Source: JBFLYE01 sp040756715 [NCBI: bacterium] (GTDB lineage: Bacteria; UBA9089; UBA9088). Taken from it: a stretch of DNA of 7,334 bases. Both the position numbers and the translations under genes were made by a program. Below, in pieces: positions 226 through 7,311 of the stretch. Position 1 is the first letter of the stretch. Every line of letters starts with the position of its first letter. A model generated the notes under the pieces. That model was not told where the DNA came from, made no database searches, and was given only the letters and a program-made list of their open reading frames with translations. The stretch covers positions 1 to 7,334 of the forward strand of contig JBFLYE010000073.1 of NCBI GenBank assembly GCA_040756715.1, written 5' to 3'.

Positions 226-1443
226 ATGATTAATTTTGTCTCTACTTTTCCACCCATAATGTGCGGAATAGGAAGTTACACTAAATATCTTGTCTCTAAA
301 ATGCCCAAGAATTGCTGGCGCGTAACTTCTCTAGCCTTAGATGGATTTTCAAAAACTAGCTTTAAATTGGATAAACGGGCAACCTATACTATTTCTTTAT
401 CCAATCCTAAACTTCCTCCTAGCTTAGATGAAGAAGTTCTCTGGTTCGAACATGCCTTTGGGATGTGGGGAAGGGAATCCCCAAGCTTTATTAAGTTAGT
501 TAAAGAGGCAAAGGAGAAGAAAAAGAAGGTAATTGCCACTCTTCATACCATCCATTTTCAATCCGATGAGACACCTCAAGGATTACAGCAAAAAGAAAAA
601 AGGCTTCTTGAAGAACTTTTACCCTCAATCGATGTAGCAACCGTCTTTACTAATGGAGCTTATGAGGCAGTGATTGAGACATTTCCTGAATATAAAGATA
701 AAGTAGTAGTGTTAAGGCATGGGGTTTTTCTTTATCCTGAAGTTAATAAAGAAGAGGCGAGGAAGAAACTTTTGAGATATCTAATGAATATAGCAAGTAT
801 CTCTCAAGCACAAATTAAATCTTGGGAAAGTCTTTTCTTTTCAAAGAAGATAATTTTGTTGGGTAGCTTTGGATTTATCACCAAGGATAAGGATCCACTC
901 AAACTTTACTCTCTGGGTGAGATTCTTCAAAAGAGACTTCCAAATTATAAGGTAGTGGTTATCTATATGGGAGAGATTCAAAAAAGAAAGGATAAAAAGA
1001 TAGAAGAGAGCCTACCCATCTTAGAAAGACTAAAATCTATCCACGATGGAAAAAGAAATCTATTCTTTGAGGATTATATTCCAGAAAGCATCCTTCCTTT
1101 TGTCTTACAGGCATTAGACTTTGCTGTATTCTGGTGTCATAACGCTAGCCAGTCAGGAAGGATGGCCCATGCTCAAGGGGCAGGAGCCTTTGTAGTTGGC
1201 CGAGATATCGAAGGTATAGGAGAGACTTTAAGACTTTCTGGTCTTCCTTCTTCTGACACCCTGGAAGGGCTGGCAGAAAAAATAGCATTACTTACTCTAA
1301 ACCATAAATTGAAACAAAAGATGCTCAGGTCAAGTTTGGACTATGCACAAAAGTTCTCTTATAAAGTTCAAGCGAAGAAACATCTCTTGTTAGAAGAAGC
1401 AGTTAGAGCTGAAAGAGAGCTGCCCATTCTTGATCGAATTTAA
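226..1443 (+). CDS. GT-B glycosyltransferase, GT4-like
   Basis: A 405-residue cytosolic enzyme predicted to transfer a sugar from a nucleotide-sugar donor to a glycan acceptor. The N-terminal Rossmann domain opens with the GT4-type signature FPPIMCGIGSYT (residues 8-19), including the glycine loop CGIG. HTIH (107-110) and LRHG (163-166) follow. The C-terminal donor domain starts around LLGSFGFITKDKDP (211-224), a form common in GT4 proteins. The usual GT4 E-x7-E donor motif is absent. Its place is taken by NASQSGRMAHAQGAG (306-320), so the catalytic detail is uncertain. I chose ATG 226 because the signature begins directly after it, and the longer in-frame TTG at 145 is the -35 box. AAGG abuts the ATG with no spacing, so initiation may be weak. 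First gene of the operon. The donor is unknown; GDP-mannose is a guess from the GH130 neighbours. Confidence 0.8.
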   Translation: MINFVSTFPPIMCGIGSYTKYLVSKMPKNCWRVTSLALDGFSKTSFKLDKRATYTISLSNPKLPPSLDEEVLWFEHAFGMWGRESPSFIKLVKEAKEKKKKVIATLHTIHFQSDETPQGLQQKEKRLLEELLPSIDVATVFTNGAYEAVIETFPEYKDKVVVLRHGVFLYPEVNKEEARKKLLRYLMNIASISQAQIKSWESLFFSKKIILLGSFGFITKDKDPLKLYSLGEILQKRLPNYKVVVIYMGEIQKRKDKKIEESLPILERLKSIHDGKRNLFFEDYIPESILPFVLQALDFAVFWCHNASQSGRMAHAQGAGAFVVGRDIEGIGETLRLSGLPSSDTLEGLAEKIALLTLNHKLKQKMLRSSLDYAQKFSYKVQAKKHLLLEEAVRAERELPILDRI

Positions 1444-1444
1444 G

Positions 1445-1852
1445 ATGGTCTTTATCTTAAAAAACTTAGCCGTGGGTAATCTTAGAGATGCAGAAGATTG
1501 CCCAAGCTCAATAAGTGCACTCCTCAATGTAGCCGATGATCTTAAATCATACAAAACCAAGAAGAAGTATCACAGAATCCCTCTTGTCGATGGATGGCCT
1601 ATTCCTGGAGAAAAGATGAGAGAGGCGATTCAGTGGATAAAGAAGCATATAATTATGGATAATATTTTGGTTTTTTGCACATTCGGGGCAGGAAGGTCTG
1701 CCTCAGTGGTGATAGGTTATCTGTGTAGCATAGGTTTTAACTATGAAGAGGCGGTTAAATTTGTCAGTTTCAAGAAACCAGATATAGTTCCTTTGCCTTT
1801 ATTGGCAGAAAGTATAAAACGAGCTCTAAAAAGAAGGCCTTATTTAAGGTAG
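1445..1852 (+). CDS. Dual-specificity-type cysteine phosphatase
   Basis: A compact 135-residue protein, about the size of a minimal dual-specificity phosphatase domain. The signature loop is FCTFGAGRS (residues 77-85), with nucleophile Cys78 and phosphate-binding Arg84 in C-x5-R spacing followed by Ser85. Asp49 in IPLVDGWP sits where the family's general acid lies, about 29 residues before the cysteine. The histidine that normally precedes the cysteine is Phe77, which may raise the cysteine pKa and alter activity. No signal peptide, membrane segment or carbohydrate-binding domain is visible. ATG 1445 is one base after the previous stop, suggesting translational coupling. An in-frame TTG at 1430 would add five residues and overlap the upstream gene. 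The substrate could be a phosphoprotein, a phospho-sugar or a phosphorylated glycan; the operon favours one of the latter two but does not prove it. Confidence 0.8.
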   Translation: MVFILKNLAVGNLRDAEDCPSSISALLNVADDLKSYKTKKKYHRIPLVDGWPIPGEKMREAIQWIKKHIIMDNILVFCTFGAGRSASVVIGYLCSIGFNYEEAVKFVSFKKPDIVPLPLLAESIKRALKRRPYLR

Positions 1853-1858
1853 TAACCA

Positions 1859-2920
1859 ATGAAGATAGGAATGATGTCTGCCTGGAATGAAGACTCAGGC
1901 GTATCTATCCATGCCGAGTTAATCGGAAGAGAATTTGTAAAGATGGGACATAAACTCTCTGTCTTCTCTTTTTTTAAGTCTAATTTTCATGGCACAGCTA
2001 TTGTGGGAAAAGATGAAGAGTATGTGAGTCGCTGCTTTACTACATCCAGTGCAAAAAATCCTTTCTTAGATGCTCATCCTATTCTAAAAGAGAACTATGA
2101 TATATTTATCACCCAAGATTTGGGAATGCTTCCCTTGGAAGAATTAGCCAAGATATTTCCAAAGATTAAAAGAAAAGCTAAAACTGTGACCGTGATTCAT
2201 CATAATAGAACTCCAGAAAATCCTTTATTCTGGGAGCTTCCCTGGGATAAAGTTATCTATTTTGATGATCGGTATTACCAATTTTTAAAAGAGCTCTTTC
2301 CCAAAGAAAAACTTCACCTTATACCCTATCCTTGCCATCCGAAAAGATGTAAAGATAAGCTTAAGGAAAGGGGAAATTTAGCCCTTCCCGAGAATAAATA
2401 TATTCTCTTTCTCTTTGGCCAACGCGGGATTAAAGAAGCGGGTGAACTTTTACCCATCTTAGACAATATGAGCAAAACCTTACCCATTCTTCTTTTAGTG
2501 GTTTCAAAGAGGGATTTAGATAAAATAAGAGAGTTTAAGCCAAATTTCTTAAAGATCTTAATAAGAGAAGAGACGCCAGATATAGACAAACTCTATAGTT
2601 ATCTTCATGCCTCAGATCTACTGCTTTATCATCGCAAAGCTCCCAATGGTGCTATAGTATCATCTACTGCTTATCAATGCATAGGTTCTTTCTGTCCTAT
2701 TTTAGCTTTAGAGTCAAACTATTTCTATAATATGGATGGTGCAGTCATTACTTATACTAATCTTTTGGAGTTTGAACTCAAGCTGATAGAGATCCTAAAT
2801 AAAGGAAGAATATATCAAAACTGGAAGAGTAGTTTAGAGGATTTTTTGAGAAAAAATTCGGCCAAACCTATAGCTCTCCAATATATTAAGCTATTTCAGC
2901 ATCTATTAGAAGAGGTTTAA
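1859..2920 (+). CDS. Glycosyltransferase-like protein, paralogue 1 of 3
   Basis: A 353-residue protein with the outline of a GT-B glycosyltransferase. It opens with a beta-strand and glycine loop, MMSAWNEDSGVSIHAE (residues 5-20), then a helix ending KMGHKLSVFSF. The middle carries TVIHHN (111-116), DKVIYFD (130-136) and IPYPCHP (155-161). The C-terminal half has SYLHASD (247-253) and VSSTAYQCIG (267-276), where GT4 enzymes hold donor-binding residues; no E-x7-E motif is seen. It is clearly homologous to the proteins at 2924-3964 and 5733-6785: 28 of the first 38 residues match the former. An AAGG motif about 9 bases upstream supports the ATG. It starts 6 bases after the phosphatase gene. I cannot name a family with certainty; a sugar transferase acting on the same glycan as the GH130 pair is the best inference. 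Confidence 0.7.
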   Translation: MKIGMMSAWNEDSGVSIHAELIGREFVKMGHKLSVFSFFKSNFHGTAIVGKDEEYVSRCFTTSSAKNPFLDAHPILKENYDIFITQDLGMLPLEELAKIFPKIKRKAKTVTVIHHNRTPENPLFWELPWDKVIYFDDRYYQFLKELFPKEKLHLIPYPCHPKRCKDKLKERGNLALPENKYILFLFGQRGIKEAGELLPILDNMSKTLPILLLVVSKRDLDKIREFKPNFLKILIREETPDIDKLYSYLHASDLLLYHRKAPNGAIVSSTAYQCIGSFCPILALESNYFYNMDGAVITYTNLLEFELKLIEILNKGRIYQNWKSSLEDFLRKNSAKPIALQYIKLFQHLLEEV

Positions 2921-2923
2921 AAG

Positions 2924-3964
2924 ATGAGAATTGCGATGATGAGTGCCTGGAATACTGATTCTGGAGTAGCTCTCCATGCAGAGCCAATAGGTAAGGAATT
3001 AAGAAAGATGGGGCATAAGTTAACCGTCTTTAGTTTTATAGAGGATGACTTCCATGGAGATGGAATTACCGCTTCTGATGAGGACTATGTGGTTAGGTGC
3101 TTTGGGACGCAAAAAACAAACTTTTTAGATCCAAGACCAATCCTTTCCATCCATTTTGATATATTTATTGTCCAGGACTTAAGGATGCTGCCAGTTAAGA
3201 ATCTGGCAAAGATATTCCCCTTAATTAAGAAAAGAGCAAGAACAGTCCATATTGTCCATGAGAATGAATTGCCTAAGGAGCCGTGGTTCTATCAGTTTGA
3301 CTGGGATTTGATTATCTATTTTGACAAAAGGCAGGATTTCTTAAAAAAGATCTATCCTGATGCTGTTTATATTCCTTTCCCCTGTTTTGAGATAAGAAGA
3401 AAAGATAAACTTGAAGCAAGAAAGAGATTAGACCTTCCAATGAATAAAAAGCTCATCTATTGCTTTGCTCAAAGAGGGTATCATTCATACCTAAGGGATT
3501 TACCAGAAAAGTTAGAGAATGAGACGCTTCTTTTGCATGTAGTCTCTAAAGGGTATGAGATGCTGGAAGGAAAATCTCCTCCTTCCTGGATGATTGTCCG
3601 GCAAGAAGAACCACTTTCCCAAGAGAGGTTTGATGAATACCTATTTGCCTCAGATGCATTAATCCTCCATAAATTTAAGAGCCGCTATCATGCCCTTGTC
3701 TCATCTACTGCCTTTCAGGCCTTGGGCTGTGGCTGTCCAATCTTTGTTCCCGAAGGCTCAGACTTCTTCTATCCCTTAGAGGATGTGGTGGTGAGGTATA
3801 GAGATATTGAGGATTTAAAAGAGAGATTATGCACTCTGCTTGAGGATAAGAGGGCTTTTGATGAGGCAATCGACCGACAGGATGGTTTTGCCCTCATGAA
3901 TTCACCCAAGATAATCGCCGATAGATTTATAGGATTCTTTACGGAGATATTAAGAAGGAGATGA
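2924..3964 (+). CDS. Glycosyltransferase-like protein, paralogue 2 of 3
   Basis: A 346-residue paralogue of the preceding gene product with the same motif order: MMSAWNTDSGVALHAE (5-20), HIVHENELP (109-117), DLIIYFDKR (128-136), IPFPCF (150-155), EYLFASDALILH (238-249), and VSSTAFQALGCGCPI (259-273). The last block resembles the donor-side loop of GT-B enzymes, but a GT4 E-x7-E pair is missing. No signal peptide or membrane helix is visible. AGAGG at 2911-2915 lies 8 bases before the ATG, the clearest ribosome-binding site in the operon. The gene starts 3 bases after its paralogue and its stop overlaps the next start in ATGA, so it is probably made together with the first GH130 protein. Tandem position and similarity point to local duplication followed by divergence. 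Confidence 0.7.
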   Translation: MRIAMMSAWNTDSGVALHAEPIGKELRKMGHKLTVFSFIEDDFHGDGITASDEDYVVRCFGTQKTNFLDPRPILSIHFDIFIVQDLRMLPVKNLAKIFPLIKKRARTVHIVHENELPKEPWFYQFDWDLIIYFDKRQDFLKKIYPDAVYIPFPCFEIRRKDKLEARKRLDLPMNKKLIYCFAQRGYHSYLRDLPEKLENETLLLHVVSKGYEMLEGKSPPSWMIVRQEEPLSQERFDEYLFASDALILHKFKSRYHALVSSTAFQALGCGCPIFVPEGSDFFYPLEDVVVRYRDIEDLKERLCTLLEDKRAFDEAIDRQDGFALMNSPKIIADRFIGFFTEILRRR

Positions 3965-4845
3965 GATTTCCCGTTGGACCATTTGTGGATTATCCCAATA
4001 ATCCCATCCTTTCACCCCAAGCTGGGTTAAAGAGGATATATAACCCAACCGTGATCAGGGATAATGGTATCTTCTATATGTTATTACGAGGGGAGGGCAA
4101 TGATGGATTGACCGGAAAAATATACCTAGCAAAAGGAAATAGCCCAACCTCATTCAAGCTTTTTCCCAAACCTTGCCTTTCACCCTCTGCTGAGTTTGAT
4201 ATAGGTGGCTGTGAGGACCCAAGGGTGGTAAAGTTTAATGATACCTATTACCTTACCTATGTGGGTAATAGTAAAAGGTATAATGTTTCAAATATCTGCC
4301 TTGCCACCTCAAAGGATTTAATAAATTGGGAGAAACATGGACCTATCTTACAGACAGGAAAGTGGGATAGTGGACAGTTAAAGGCAGGGGCTATTCTGAA
4401 TGAGAAGATAAATGGTAAATATGTCATGTACTTTATGGGAGAGGAAAGCCCTTGGGTAACTGCGATTGGAATAGCCTATTCCGAAGACCTCTTTTTTTGG
4501 TATGAACCAATAGATGAACCCATTCTTTCTCCTCGCGATGGCTATTTTGATTCCCAAGGGGTTGAGCCTGGTCCTAATCCGGTGGTTATTGAGGAGGGAA
4601 TACTTCTAATCTACAATGGCTGGGGAAAGGACTGTATTTATAGACCAGGAGGGGTAATCTTCTCAAAAGAAGACCCAGCCAAGATATTGGAGAGGATGGA
4701 TAAGCCAATATTGGTGCCAAATGCTATAGAAGGACTTAATAAAGACTACCATGTGGTTAGCGAAGGGCTGATAAGCTTTAATGATAGATGGTTTCTATAT
4801 TATGGAGCAGGAGATAAATTTAGCTCTCTTGCTACATACCCTTAA
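3961..4845 (+). CDS. GH130-family protein with altered phosphate-site residues
   Basis: A 294-residue five-bladed beta-propeller protein of the GH130 family, whose members phosphorolyse (or, in some branches, hydrolyse) beta-mannosides. The catalytic signature GGCEDPR (82-88) holds the expected proton donor Asp86. NPTV (28-31), LLRGEG (41-46) and FLYYGAGDK (278-286) also fit the family. Compared with the neighbour at 4855, the HRR block is replaced by FMG (158-160) followed by two Glu (161-162), the YHG histidine is Asn219, and GAGAPPI becomes EPGPNPV (202-208). Loss of basic residues and gain of Glu is known in GH130 beta-1,2-mannosidases, so hydrolysis rather than phosphorolysis is possible. 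The C-terminus stops at LATYP, about nine residues short of its paralogue. ATG 3961 overlaps the previous stop (ATGA). AAGGAG touches the ATG, so GGAG at 3943-3946 may serve instead. Confidence 0.85.
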   Translation: MRFPVGPFVDYPNNPILSPQAGLKRIYNPTVIRDNGIFYMLLRGEGNDGLTGKIYLAKGNSPTSFKLFPKPCLSPSAEFDIGGCEDPRVVKFNDTYYLTYVGNSKRYNVSNICLATSKDLINWEKHGPILQTGKWDSGQLKAGAILNEKINGKYVMYFMGEESPWVTAIGIAYSEDLFFWYEPIDEPILSPRDGYFDSQGVEPGPNPVVIEEGILLIYNGWGKDCIYRPGGVIFSKEDPAKILERMDKPILVPNAIEGLNKDYHVVSEGLISFNDRWFLYYGAGDKFSSLATYP

Positions 4846-4854
4846 AAAGATAAG

Positions 4855-5736
4855 ATGAAGGCAAGGCGATATCTGGGTAATCCCATCCTTTTGCCAAAGA
4901 GGGAGAATGAATGGGAGTCAAGGTTTGTCTTTAATCCCGCAGCTTTGTATGCAAATGGGCTTTTTCACCTTCTCTATCGGGCAGTGGGAGGGGATGGTAT
5001 ATCCAGGATGGGATATGGAGTAAGTAAAGATGGCTATAACTTCCTTAGATTTGATAAGCCTGTCTTTACTCCGCGTGGAAGGTTAGAATCAAAAGGGTGT
5101 GAAGACCCAAGAGTTGTAAATCTTGATAATAAGTTCTACATGACCTATACCGCCTATTCCCATGAAGGAACAAGAATAGGACTTTCCTCAACCTCAAACT
5201 TTATTGAGTGGAGAAGATATGGGGTGATACTTCCTGAGCTTCCCAATAAGGATGCGGTGCTTTTTCCTGAGAAAATCAAAGGTAGATATGCATTATTTCA
5301 CCGAAGAATGGATATAAAGCCACTTTCCATCTGGATCGCCTATTCAGATGATCTCCTTAACTGGAGTGATCACAAAAAGGTTATGTCTCCACAAGAAGGA
5401 GATTGGGATAGTGTGGCCATTGGTGCAGGGGCTCCGCCAATTAAGACAGAGAAAGGATGGATGCTTATCTATCATGGTGTGGATAGAGAGGGAAGCTATA
5501 GCCTGGGGGTAGCACTCTTTGATCTAATTGATCCCTCTTTGCTTCTCTTTAGAAGCAAAGACCCCATCCTTGAACCAGAAGAGGACTATGAACTAAGGGG
5601 TGAAAGAAATCAGGTTGTCTTTGCCTGTGGGGTATGTGAATTTGAGGGTAGATACTATATCTACTATGGAGCAGCAGATAAGGTTATTGGCGTTGCTACC
5701 TTGGATAAGGATGAACTTTTTCAGGTTATAAGATGA
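4855..5736 (+). CDS. GH130 beta-mannoside phosphorylase
   Basis: A 293-residue GH130 protein of typical length, expected to cleave a beta-mannoside with inorganic phosphate to give alpha-mannose 1-phosphate, or to run in reverse. Family landmarks are FNPAA (26-30), LLYRAVGGDG (39-48), GCEDPR (81-86) with catalytic Asp84, NKDAVLFPEK (131-140), FHRR (148-151), WIAYSDDLLNW (160-170), GAGAPPI (190-196) and IYHGVD (205-210). The Lys, Arg and His residues in these blocks are where characterised GH130 phosphorylases bind phosphate, and all look intact. No signal peptide is seen, so the substrate should be cytosolic. It starts 9 bases after the other GH130 gene, with only a weak purine-rich stretch upstream. 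Its stop overlaps the next gene in ATGA. Linkage (beta-1,2 or beta-1,4) and chain-length preference cannot be read from sequence. Confidence 0.88.
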   Translation: MKARRYLGNPILLPKRENEWESRFVFNPAALYANGLFHLLYRAVGGDGISRMGYGVSKDGYNFLRFDKPVFTPRGRLESKGCEDPRVVNLDNKFYMTYTAYSHEGTRIGLSSTSNFIEWRRYGVILPELPNKDAVLFPEKIKGRYALFHRRMDIKPLSIWIAYSDDLLNWSDHKKVMSPQEGDWDSVAIGAGAPPIKTEKGWMLIYHGVDREGSYSLGVALFDLIDPSLLLFRSKDPILEPEEDYELRGERNQVVFACGVCEFEGRYYIYYGAADKVIGVATLDKDELFQVIR

Positions 5737-6785
5737 AGATAACCATGATGAGCCGCTGGAATATCCCCTGTGGGGTCTCTCTCCATGCCGAACTTTTAGG
5801 TAGGGCATTAGTAGAGCTTGGCCATAATCTTTCTGTTTTAGCCCCGGTTGAGGATGAGGATTATCTATATCATAAGGATGAACCCTATGTTTTACGATGT
5901 TTCAGACTCCCAAAGAAAAAAGGGGGATTCTTCTTTGATTCCAAGCCTTTTCTTAAAGAGGCCTGCGATATCTTTGTAGTGCAAAACCTTGAGATACTGC
6001 CAATGGAAGACTTACTTGAAATATACCCAATGATAAGAAAGAGAGCTAAGACAGTTCTTGTAATACATGAAGGTAAACCTCCTAAGGATCAAACATTTTA
6101 TAAATTTGCCTGGGATGCTATTGTCTGTTTTGACAAAAGATACAAGAGATTTCTTTCTAAGATATATCCCAAAGATAGAATACATATAATCCCTTATCCC
6201 TGCTATCCTTTGATGTTAGGGGATAAAAAAGAGGCAAGGCTTAAACTAAATTTGCCACTTGATAAGAAGATAATCTTTAATTATGGTATGGGAGTATATC
6301 GCCACCTCCATCTTTTACCAACAATTGAAAGAGTAAATAAAGTATATCCCCTTATCCTCCTTACCCTAACCCATATTAAAGAGTGGTATGATCTATTTGA
6401 GGCAGTAAAAAATAGATATAAATTCATTGAATTAAGAAGAGGAAAACTACCTGTGGATTTGCTTTATAAATATCTGCATGCCTGTGATTGTCTCCTAATT
6501 CATAAAGACTCAGCAGAGGCAGTAGTTGTTCCCTCCACCGCATTTCTTTGTTTGGGTGCAGGAAGGCCAATTCTTGCTTATAATACAAATTTCTTTGAAA
6601 CCTTTGATAAGGAGGTTTTGAAATATTCAAGTCTTTCTGATGGCCTTGAAGATGTATTTGAAGAGAGAGAAAATGTTGAATTAGTTTTAAAGACATCTCA
6701 AGGATATGTGAGAAAGAATTCATCAATTGAGATAGCCAAAAAGTTTATCAAGCTTTTTAAGTCATTGTTAAGCTCTAATCGCTAA
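5733..6785 (+). CDS. Glycosyltransferase-like protein, paralogue 3 of 3
   Basis: A 350-residue member of the same family as the proteins at 1859 and 2924, separated from them by the two GH130 genes. It shares MMSRWN (5-10), GVSLHAE (14-20), VLVIHEG (108-114), DAIVCFDKRY (128-137), IIPYPCYP (152-159), KYLHACDCLLIH (246-257) and VPSTAFLCLGAGRPI (266-280). The glycine loop reads IPCGVS instead of the D-S-G-V form, closer to the PxxCGI loop of the first glycosyltransferase, so it may be an early-branching copy or use a different acceptor. AGG at 5723-5725 lies 7 bases before the ATG, and the start overlaps the GH130 stop (ATGA). The stop codon lies inside a heptamer repeat beginning at 6781. No E-x7-E motif. 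Function is inferred as sugar transfer only. Confidence 0.7.
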   Translation: MKITMMSRWNIPCGVSLHAELLGRALVELGHNLSVLAPVEDEDYLYHKDEPYVLRCFRLPKKKGGFFFDSKPFLKEACDIFVVQNLEILPMEDLLEIYPMIRKRAKTVLVIHEGKPPKDQTFYKFAWDAIVCFDKRYKRFLSKIYPKDRIHIIPYPCYPLMLGDKKEARLKLNLPLDKKIIFNYGMGVYRHLHLLPTIERVNKVYPLILLTLTHIKEWYDLFEAVKNRYKFIELRRGKLPVDLLYKYLHACDCLLIHKDSAEAVVVPSTAFLCLGAGRPILAYNTNFFETFDKEVLKYSSLSDGLEDVFEERENVELVLKTSQGYVRKNSSIEIAKKFIKLFKSLLSSNR

Positions 6786-6864: not shown

Positions 6865-6870
6865 AAATTG

Positions 6871-7311
6871 ATGTTTTTGGCAATAATTATTATCCTTGCA
6901 TTCCTTATTCAGACCTCAGGAATACTCATTCTCTTTAATACATCTTGCAACCTTCTTCTTATCACAACAATATTTGCCTCATTAAAATGTATTCCCTATA
7001 GCGCAGGTTTTTTTGGATTTTTCTGCGGCATACTTTTAGACTTGCTTGCAATAAGACATTTTGGAATAAACGCTTTGTCTTTTTCTATAATAGCAATATT
7101 GGTAAGCATTTCTTCAAAGAGGATATACCATAGGGTTTATATTATCTTTTTCCTTGTCTTTTTAGCAACTATACTTTCTGGCATTATTTCTTTATTTCTC
7201 CTTTTTCTTTTTGAAGGCTTTTTGCTTAATTTTTTTCATCTTTTAAAGGAGGGTTTGTATAATTCTATTTTTGCTTCTTTAATCTTTATTTTTATAAGAA
7301 AGAGGCTATGA
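6871..7311 (+). CDS. mreD: Rod shape-determining protein MreD
   Basis: A 146-residue, very hydrophobic inner-membrane protein, of a size typical for MreD. About five membrane segments are visible, roughly at residues 2-22, 26-40, 45-60, 68-82 and 88-118, with another near 128-142 before the basic tail RKRL. The diagnostic part is AGFFGFFCGILLDLL (45-59), with conserved glycines and Asp57, followed by HFGINALSF (63-71). MreD helps MreB, MreC, RodA and PBP2 build the lateral wall of rod-shaped cells. I chose ATG 6871 over the TTG directly before it; no ribosome-binding site is seen for either. The next gene starts inside its stop codon. mreC, normally just upstream, is absent here and the glycan operon takes its place. 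Its strong T-richness is expected for a membrane protein. Confidence 0.85.
   Translation: MFLAIIIILAFLIQTSGILILFNTSCNLLLITTIFASLKCIPYSAGFFGFFCGILLDLLAIRHFGINALSFSIIAILVSISSKRIYHRVYIIFFLVFLATILSGIISLFLLFLFEGFLLNFFHLLKEGLYNSIFASLIFIFIRKRL

Follow-up and report, generated by a model that had tools for sequence, protein, structure and literature searches.

The 7,334-nucleotide stretch of DNA analyzed here (the window), from contig JBFLYE010000073.1 of the bacterium JBFLYE01 sp040756715, carries an operon of seven same-strand (plus) genes, spanning positions 226 to 6785, that combines four glycosyltransferase-like genes, two GH130 genes, and a phosphatase gene. We tentatively propose, with somewhat less than even confidence, that the seven genes specify a self-contained pathway in the cytosol, by which a short beta-1,2-mannose glycoside is built from GDP-mannose and its mannose is later recovered. 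In those lineages in which the operon is linked to a gene for an inositol-3-phosphate synthase family protein (MIPS), the root of this glycoside is probably inositol. The direct observations are the gene set, its order and conservation, the residue types of the GH130 proteins, the GT4 fold of one transferase (as a model), the tie between its family and GH130, and the fact that relatives carry MIPS and decayed genes of the manC type within the operon. From these we infer all of the substrates, which linkage the transferases form, the sequence of the steps, and the inositol root.

The first gene encodes GT-A1, a GT4-like glycosyltransferase of 405 amino acids that stands apart from the other three transferases (226 to 1443, with its ATG at 226). 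It is followed by a dual-specificity-type phosphatase of 135 amino acids, DSP (1445 to 1852), by the first and second of three paralogous GT4-fold transferases, GT-B1 (353 amino acids; 1859 to 2920) and GT-B2 (346 amino acids; 2924 to 3964), by GH130a, a predicted beta-1,2-mannosidase of the hydrolase type (294 amino acids; 3961 to 4845), by GH130b, a predicted beta-1,2-mannoside phosphorylase (293 amino acids; 4855 to 5736), and by the third paralogue, GT-B3 (350 amino acids; 5733 to 6785). The intergenic spacings, in gene order, are 1, 6, 3, −4, 9, and −4 bases, and both overlaps are of the ATGA type. These recomputed values agree with an earlier note on this DNA, made from the sequence alone, which had described a seven-gene operon with gaps of 9 bases or less and two ATGA overlaps. 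The note had also stated that the unit lacks exporters, polymerases, and signal peptides, and both hydropathy and gene content bear this out: no membrane segment or signal peptide was apparent in the seven proteins (the best 19-residue Kyte-Doolittle mean was 1.59, versus 2.71 at the start of the downstream MreD), and no exporter, importer, or polymerase is encoded inside the operon.

The full seven-gene set recurs in identical order in a genome of the same phylum but another family (G007) and in a genome of another phylum (G226), so that, with the window genome (G000), it is present in three genomes from two phyla. The gene set thus passes the check on co-conservation that the earlier note had suggested. 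Protein identities were 79 to 88% across the phylum boundary, between G007 and G226, and 62 to 78% within one phylum, between the window and G007. GT-A1 was 77% identical to both of the other copies, GT-B1 was 70% identical to that of G007 and 69% identical to that of G226, and GT-B3 was 78 and 77% identical, respectively. Between G007 and G226, nonsynonymous divergence (dN) was 0.06 to 0.11 and synonymous divergence (dS) was 0.49 to 0.67 across all seven genes; between the window and G007, dS ranged from 0.79 to saturation. All seven genes look to be under purifying selection where synonymous change is measurable. The other 17 sampled genomes of the window's phylum yielded no GH130 and no GT-B gene at an E value of 1e-15. 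Since the closest pair by both identity and dS is the cross-phylum pair and the 17 other same-phylum genomes sampled lack GH130, the operon probably moves horizontally, and transfer of the whole operon is the simplest reading of this distribution. A contig scan with GH130b returned only two loci, neither of which held window genes other than GH130. Upstream of the operon in G226 (L063:1-2975, contig C75) lie genes for a GH65-phosphorylase-like protein (769 amino acids, named by eye) and a HAD hydrolase, possibly another phosphorolytic sugar pathway.

Both GH130 proteins match PF04041 (144.8 bits for GH130a and 245.1 bits for GH130b; cut-off, 26). To assign their types, we aligned them to printed segments of solved relatives, on which the published BT3780 numbering fit at 12 of 12 residues. 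In the available text of PMC4599007, GH130 beta-1,2-mannosidases are distinguished by the pair Glu227/Glu268, and Lys199 is reported to select beta-1,2-mannose. GH130a residues E161, E202, and K141 correspond to these three and are retained in all four GH130a proteins compared (those of the window, G007, G226, and G192, a genome with a shorter related set described below). Having both mannosidase glutamates, GH130a is probably of the hydrolase type, a predicted beta-1,2-mannosidase. GH130b has M152 and G190 at the two glutamate positions and K132 at the Lys199 position; its phosphate site is basic, with the HRR motif of the solved phosphorylases 9fj8 and 7fip (in G007 and G226 the motif reads HRP), and its best match in the Protein Data Bank (PDB) is a 1,2-beta-oligomannan phosphorylase (E = 1e-91). 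We therefore predict that GH130b is a phosphorylase-type enzyme acting on beta-1,2-mannosides.

The earlier note's description of the two GH130 proteins as phosphorylase-family enzymes accordingly stands for GH130b but not for GH130a, which has hydrolase-type residues, while its view that they are directed at mannose gains from the beta-1,2 lysine kept in both. The residue test ruled out two equal phosphorylases; whole-sequence scores do not separate the types for GH130a. The note had further suggested a product that is both built and phosphorolysed. Genes for building and breaking are indeed conserved together, but with a hydrolase-type GH130a, not everything need be phosphorolysed.

The four transferase-like proteins gave Pfam glycosyltransferase matches below threshold only (15.7 to 22.9 bits versus cut-offs of 25 to 28.5), and a PDB sequence search with GT-A1 and GT-B profiles returned no match at an E value of 1. 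GT-B1, GT-B2, and GT-B3 (genes 3, 4, and 7) are paralogues, 37 to 43% identical, with GT-B1 43% identical to GT-B2 and 39% identical to GT-B3. An AlphaFold model of GT-B2 built with 22 sequences (pLDDT, 92.0; pTM, 0.89) matched PimA with a Z score of 28.0 (324 residues aligned; root mean square deviation, 3.2), MshA with 27.6, and BshA with 26.6; MshA was its top Foldseek match. We are confident that GT-B2, as modeled, has a GT4-like GT-B fold, and GT-B1 and GT-B3 are assigned likewise from sequence. The usual acidic pair of the GT4 donor site, E-x7-E, is missing: an acidic residue was found at both positions in 0 of 22 aligned GT-B sequences, at the second position in 0 of 22, and at the first in none of the sequences listed. 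For this reason we term the proteins GT4-fold enzymes rather than members of GT4, and they plausibly form a new transferase family at the core of the operon. The GT-A1 model was weaker (mean pLDDT, 76.8, with each of the first six ten-residue blocks averaging below 60 at a weak N terminus); its best Foldseek match was again MshA, followed by other retaining transferases of the GT-B fold. PimA acts on phosphatidylinositol (PI). The acceptor of MshA is inositol-1-phosphate (PMC4360819, available portion).

We surveyed 386 genomes with a GT-B profile built from the three paralogues and with GH130, both at an E value of 1e-15. GT-B relatives were present in 15 of the 386, and all 15 also had GH130, versus 90 of the 371 genomes without GT-B (Fisher P = 1.5e-9, phylogeny being ignored). 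Five further GT-B genomes came from the phyla of G226 and G192 (6 + 17 genomes examined). In 16 of these 20 GT-B genomes a GH130 gene adjoins a GT-B gene or lies one gene off; this count includes G354, in which the GH130 gene is overlaid by a longer antisense frame. The four not counted are G085 and G208, with GH130 on other contigs, and G392 and G398, in which the contig ends at GT-B and which fell outside the GH130 search. Smaller sets recur as well. The set of G192 consists of GT-B3 and then GH130a, and that of G400 adds GH130b after these two genes, GT-B3 being the window paralogue closest to the transferases of these two genomes (62 and 60% identity, respectively); the set of G386 comprises GT-B, a metallophosphoesterase, and two GH130 genes. 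In G083 the GT-B gene is broken, as is one of the GT-B genes of G226. The GT-B family, which in the 386-genome survey never occurred without GH130, directly suggests itself as a candidate for the synthetic half that has been missing. In G112, G083, and G379, a coaX-like gene (type III pantothenate kinase, named by eye) adjoins GT-B (L068:7794-9688, L070:8665-11590, and L078:3271-4484).

The company of GH130 and transferase genes could also reflect salvage, in which imported beta-1,2-oligomannosides would be phosphorolysed or hydrolysed to feed GDP-mannose, which the transferases would spend elsewhere. The available text of PMC4264767 describes a Thermoanaerobacter cluster that combines two GH130 phosphorylases with a mannose-1-phosphate guanylyltransferase, a GT4 enzyme, an ABC importer, and GH5, and the closest PDB match of GH130b, an oligomannan phosphorylase, fits such a role. 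We nevertheless consider salvage improbable. The four transferases and the phosphatase travel between phyla with the GH130 genes, and no importer or secreted glycosidase was recognized by eye in or beside the three complete copies, the rest of these genomes not having been searched. The regions inspected for sugar transporters around the operon covered 9.3 kb in G000, 17.9 kb in G007, and 20 kb in G226, and none was recognized by eye among open reading frames of at least about 90 amino acids.

In G007, the operon continues after 42 bases with MIPS (PF01658, 129.1 bits against a cut-off of 27; TIGR03450, 480 bits against a cut-off of 638), and MIPS closes the operon in G007 and G226, two of the three genomes with the full set. 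These two operon copies are 88% identical, while other MIPS proteins compared reach 65 to 67% and the second copy of G007 reaches 71%. All three complete-operon genomes encode MIPS, once in G000 and twice each in G007 and G226. This end gene, which the earlier note had missed, suggests a small inositol-rooted glycoside no less than a reserve. Across the survey, MIPS (E value, 1e-20) was found in 91 of 386 genomes, namely, 8 of the 15 GT-B genomes (partial in G208) versus 83 of the other 371 (P = 0.011, uncorrected). A general link to inositol, which we also considered, was weakened by G192 and G400, whose short contigs carry no adjoining MIPS; G192 has none genome-wide, and G400 was examined only beside the set. 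Farther along, a MarC-family membrane protein gene lies 3′ of MIPS in G226, and a Wzz/GumC-like gene (named by eye) lies about 8.4 kb past MIPS in G007.

The G226 copy also bears on the sugar donor. Between its GT-B1 and GT-B2 genes (L063:8545-9721, C75) lie pieces of a decayed manC gene, matching the first 124 positions of the mannose-1-phosphate guanylyltransferase model TIGR01479 at 84 bits, and of a decayed phosphohexomutase gene, which matches PGM_PMM domain IV at 48.1 bits and domain I at 17.7 bits (below the cut-off). The best NCBIfam models for the latter name phosphoglucosamine and phosphomannose mutases, and the gene is probably manB. A ManC-like match was present in all 23 genomes examined, 1 of them above the family cut-off; G226 retains one elsewhere (C25), with one stop codon reported within the match. 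The decayed pair and the ManC-like matches support GDP-mannose as the donor.

The product might also be a compatible solute resembling mannosylated di-myo-inositol phosphate (MDIP, with its relative MMDIP, of Thermotoga), made by another transferase family and recycled by GH130. According to the available text of PMC3124967, a 1,2-mannosyltransferase forms MDIP and MMDIP from GDP-mannose, as beta-mannosides of di-myo-inositol phosphate. A second type of cluster recalls this chemistry, with genes for MIPS, an IPCT/DIPPS-like protein, an HD/DUF4202-domain protein, a GT4 enzyme, GT-B, and GH130 in a row. It is intact in G387 (L160:3101-9528), where we assigned the domains via the 89 to 94% identical proteins of G226, and it also occurs in G226 (C74; L079:7696-14134), where the GT-B gene, an intact frame in G387, is broken. 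An IPCT/DIPPS-like gene was found in G226, G072, G073, and G091. Against this solute, no IPCT/DIPPS match was found in the window genome or G007 at an E value of 1e-25; IPCT/DIPPS matches occurred in 4 of the 15 GT-B genomes versus 49 of 371 (P = 0.14), an enrichment that is not significant; the IPCT/DIPPS-like protein scored 297 bits (cut-off, 580); and the beta-1,2 lysine is absent from P0024, the GH130 protein of this second cluster type. We consider this solute an outside chance.

The glycoside might alternatively be the head group of a phosphatidylinositol mannoside (PIM)-like glycolipid, with GT-A1 and the GT-B enzymes mannosylating PI on the cytosolic face of the membrane, DSP converting PI-phosphate to PI, and the GH130 enzymes trimming. 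PI-phosphate-synthase-like genes are present in the window genome and in G007, and PimA, tied with MshA, heads the GT-B2 fold matches. G226, in spite of its full operon, has no separate PI-phosphate synthase match at an E value of 1e-8, only the DIPPS-domain match, and G007 has a separate PIM-like cluster. Moreover, the GH130 substrates known to us are soluble or surface glycans, which likewise weighs against a lipid. This possibility strikes us as remote. The separate cluster of G007 (C62; L162:818-3887) carries, in a row, a PI-phosphate-synthase-like gene, a GT4 gene, and a PIM-acyltransferase-like gene whose product (196 bits; cut-off, 209) has a methyltransferase-like C-terminal part, and it suggests PIM-like lipids in that phylum. 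As the lipid and IPCT/DIPPS evidence is uneven across the three copies, the common denominator is inositol phosphate plus GDP-mannose, rather than a lipid or di-inositol phosphate.

DSP matches PF00782 at 39.2 bits (cut-off, 33.5), has a CX5R motif whose C78 and R84 are kept in G007, and finds tyrosine and dual-specificity phosphatases in the PDB from an E value of 6e-9. Phosphatase-like genes of three unrelated kinds recur across the GT-B/GH130 sets, with a presumed role.

In the cytosolic mannoside pathway that we tentatively favor, GT-A1 would place the first sugar on an acceptor, which in MIPS-linked lineages is probably myo-inositol-1-phosphate, as with MshA in mycothiol synthesis, and DSP would strip the phosphate, as in the MshA2 role. 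GT-B1, GT-B2, and GT-B3 would then each attach one more sugar, which would explain why the three paralogues have been kept as separate orthologous lines. For recovery, GH130b would phosphorolyse terminal beta-1,2-mannose to mannose 1-phosphate, which would return to GDP-mannose, and GH130a would hydrolyse beta-1,2-mannose beyond the reach of GH130b, for example, on the root. The end product would serve as a solute or as a small reserve. The inositol root would not be general, because related sets lack MIPS.

A long polymer seems to us the least probable product. The earlier note had drawn a parallel with mannogen, a beta-1,2-mannan of Leishmania, and a mannogen-like carbon reserve would suit two GH130 enzymes that both count as beta-1,2 enzymes on the lysine criterion, as well as an operon without export genes. 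The parallel found no support, however: nothing indicates a long polymer, mannogen metabolism relies on GT108 enzymes that are transferase and phosphorylase in one (PMC8950772, available text), and four distinct, separately conserved transferases are more in keeping with an oligosaccharide of defined structure than with a homopolymer. At the other extreme is a bolder version of the favored pathway, which we rate as unlikely: that GT-B1 to GT-B3 are a new inverting family of beta-1,2-mannosyltransferases on a GT4 fold without E-x7-E and, with MIPS, GT-A1, DSP, and the two GH130 enzymes, make and recycle a mannosyl-inositol oligosaccharide, a class of bacterial solute or reserve that the open-license papers searched do not describe, spread between phyla by whole-operon transfer.

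Several observations weigh against the proposed pathway. Characterized GT4 enzymes are retaining, so that a GDP-mannose donor would yield alpha-mannosides. This misfits beta-1,2 products unless the altered GT-B site works by a different mechanism. Alternatively, mannose may not be the sugar that the transferases transfer. The beta bond may arise by inversion at the altered site or be formed by another enzyme, e.g., by a GH130 enzyme in reverse. The fold matches discriminate poorly, since PimA and MshA, tied for GT-B2, lead BshA and the rest by just 1 to 2 Z units. GH130a has N103, N260, and V266 where the BT3780 site has the aromatic residues Trp160, Tyr338, and Phe344, its top PDB match is the phosphorylase 9fj8 (E = 2e-37), above the mannosidase 3qc2 (4e-32), and it falls below the cut-off of NCBIfam equivalog NF058598 (145.8 versus 550 bits) while scoring equally with the phosphorylase model NF052550 (145.2 bits). 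Because it misses the NF058598 cut-off, we label it hydrolase-type rather than filing it as a family member. GH130b, too, is below the equivalog cut-off of NF052550, beta-1,2-mannobiose phosphorylase (349.9 versus 450 bits). MIPS was not found at an E value of 1e-20 in 7 of the 15 GT-B genomes, including G192 with its GT-B3/GH130a set, from which it follows that the core does not require inositol. The MIPS gene of the window genome is on a different contig, next to a gene resembling PI-phosphate or archaetidylinositol-phosphate synthase (127 to 142 bits; cut-offs, 170 and 180), and the same pairing occurs in G002, G003, and G004, which have no operon. Finally, the role of the phosphatase-like genes in the other clusters is presumptive.

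Upstream of GT-A1, a strong sigma-70-like promoter site (TTGACA-17-TAAAAT, plus strand, 145 to 173), with TG ahead of the −10 element, matches at 11 of 12 positions. It is the strongest of 20 promoter-like matches in the window; shuffled sequences yield a mean of 19.4, so its support lies in its strength and position only. On the minus strand, a 40-residue open frame at positions 2 to 121 runs off the contig end and is the apparent start of a divergent gene with a common upstream region. The operon is followed after 82 bases by mreD (6868 to 7311) and then by a penicillin-binding-protein-like gene (named by eye), on a contig of 9.3 kb.

We found no operon of this combination described in the open-license literature, in which its individual parts are described. 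The nearest published cluster found, Thermoanaerobacter Teth514_1785-1796, is interpreted as salvage in the available text of PMC4264767. It shares with the present operon two adjacent GH130 genes without signal peptides next to a GT4 gene, and a manC gene that here survives only as the decayed piece in the G226 copy. It differs in having an ABC importer, GH5, and two phosphorylases. The present operon lacks an importer, encodes four transferases and a phosphatase along with a GH130 of the hydrolase type, and in two of its three copies ends with MIPS. GH130a resembles the Bacteroides mannosidases BT3780 and BACOVA_03624 (PMC4599007, in part) in its Glu227/Glu268 pair and Lys199; it differs from them at the three aromatic positions and in being a 294-amino-acid protein without a signal peptide, encoded in a transferase operon rather than in a mannan utilization locus.

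Entry into mycothiol synthesis proceeds through MshA and then the MshA2 phosphatase (PMC4360819, available portion), and it likewise brings MIPS, a GT4-fold transferase, and a phosphatase into one pathway, with MshA the top Foldseek match for both transferase models. Here, however, the operon has no deacetylase or cysteine ligase and does have GH130, identity to MshA is only about 12 to 16%, and GDP-mannose, if it is the donor, would be a further difference. With MDIP and MMDIP of Thermotoga maritima, the similarity lies in the kind of product predicted here, an inositol-phosphate acceptor bearing beta-1,2-mannose, but MDIP synthase is described in the available text of PMC3124967 as unrelated to known glycosyltransferases, whereas GT-B has the GT4 fold, and the window genome lacks an IPCT/DIPPS match. 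Leishmania mannogen shares beta-1,2-mannose and beta-propeller, GH130-like enzymes, but it depends on single GT108 enzymes with dual activity, whereas here the GT4-fold transferases and GH130 are separate. MDIP and mannogen are thus chemical parallels to the proposed product, rather than parallels to its enzymes.

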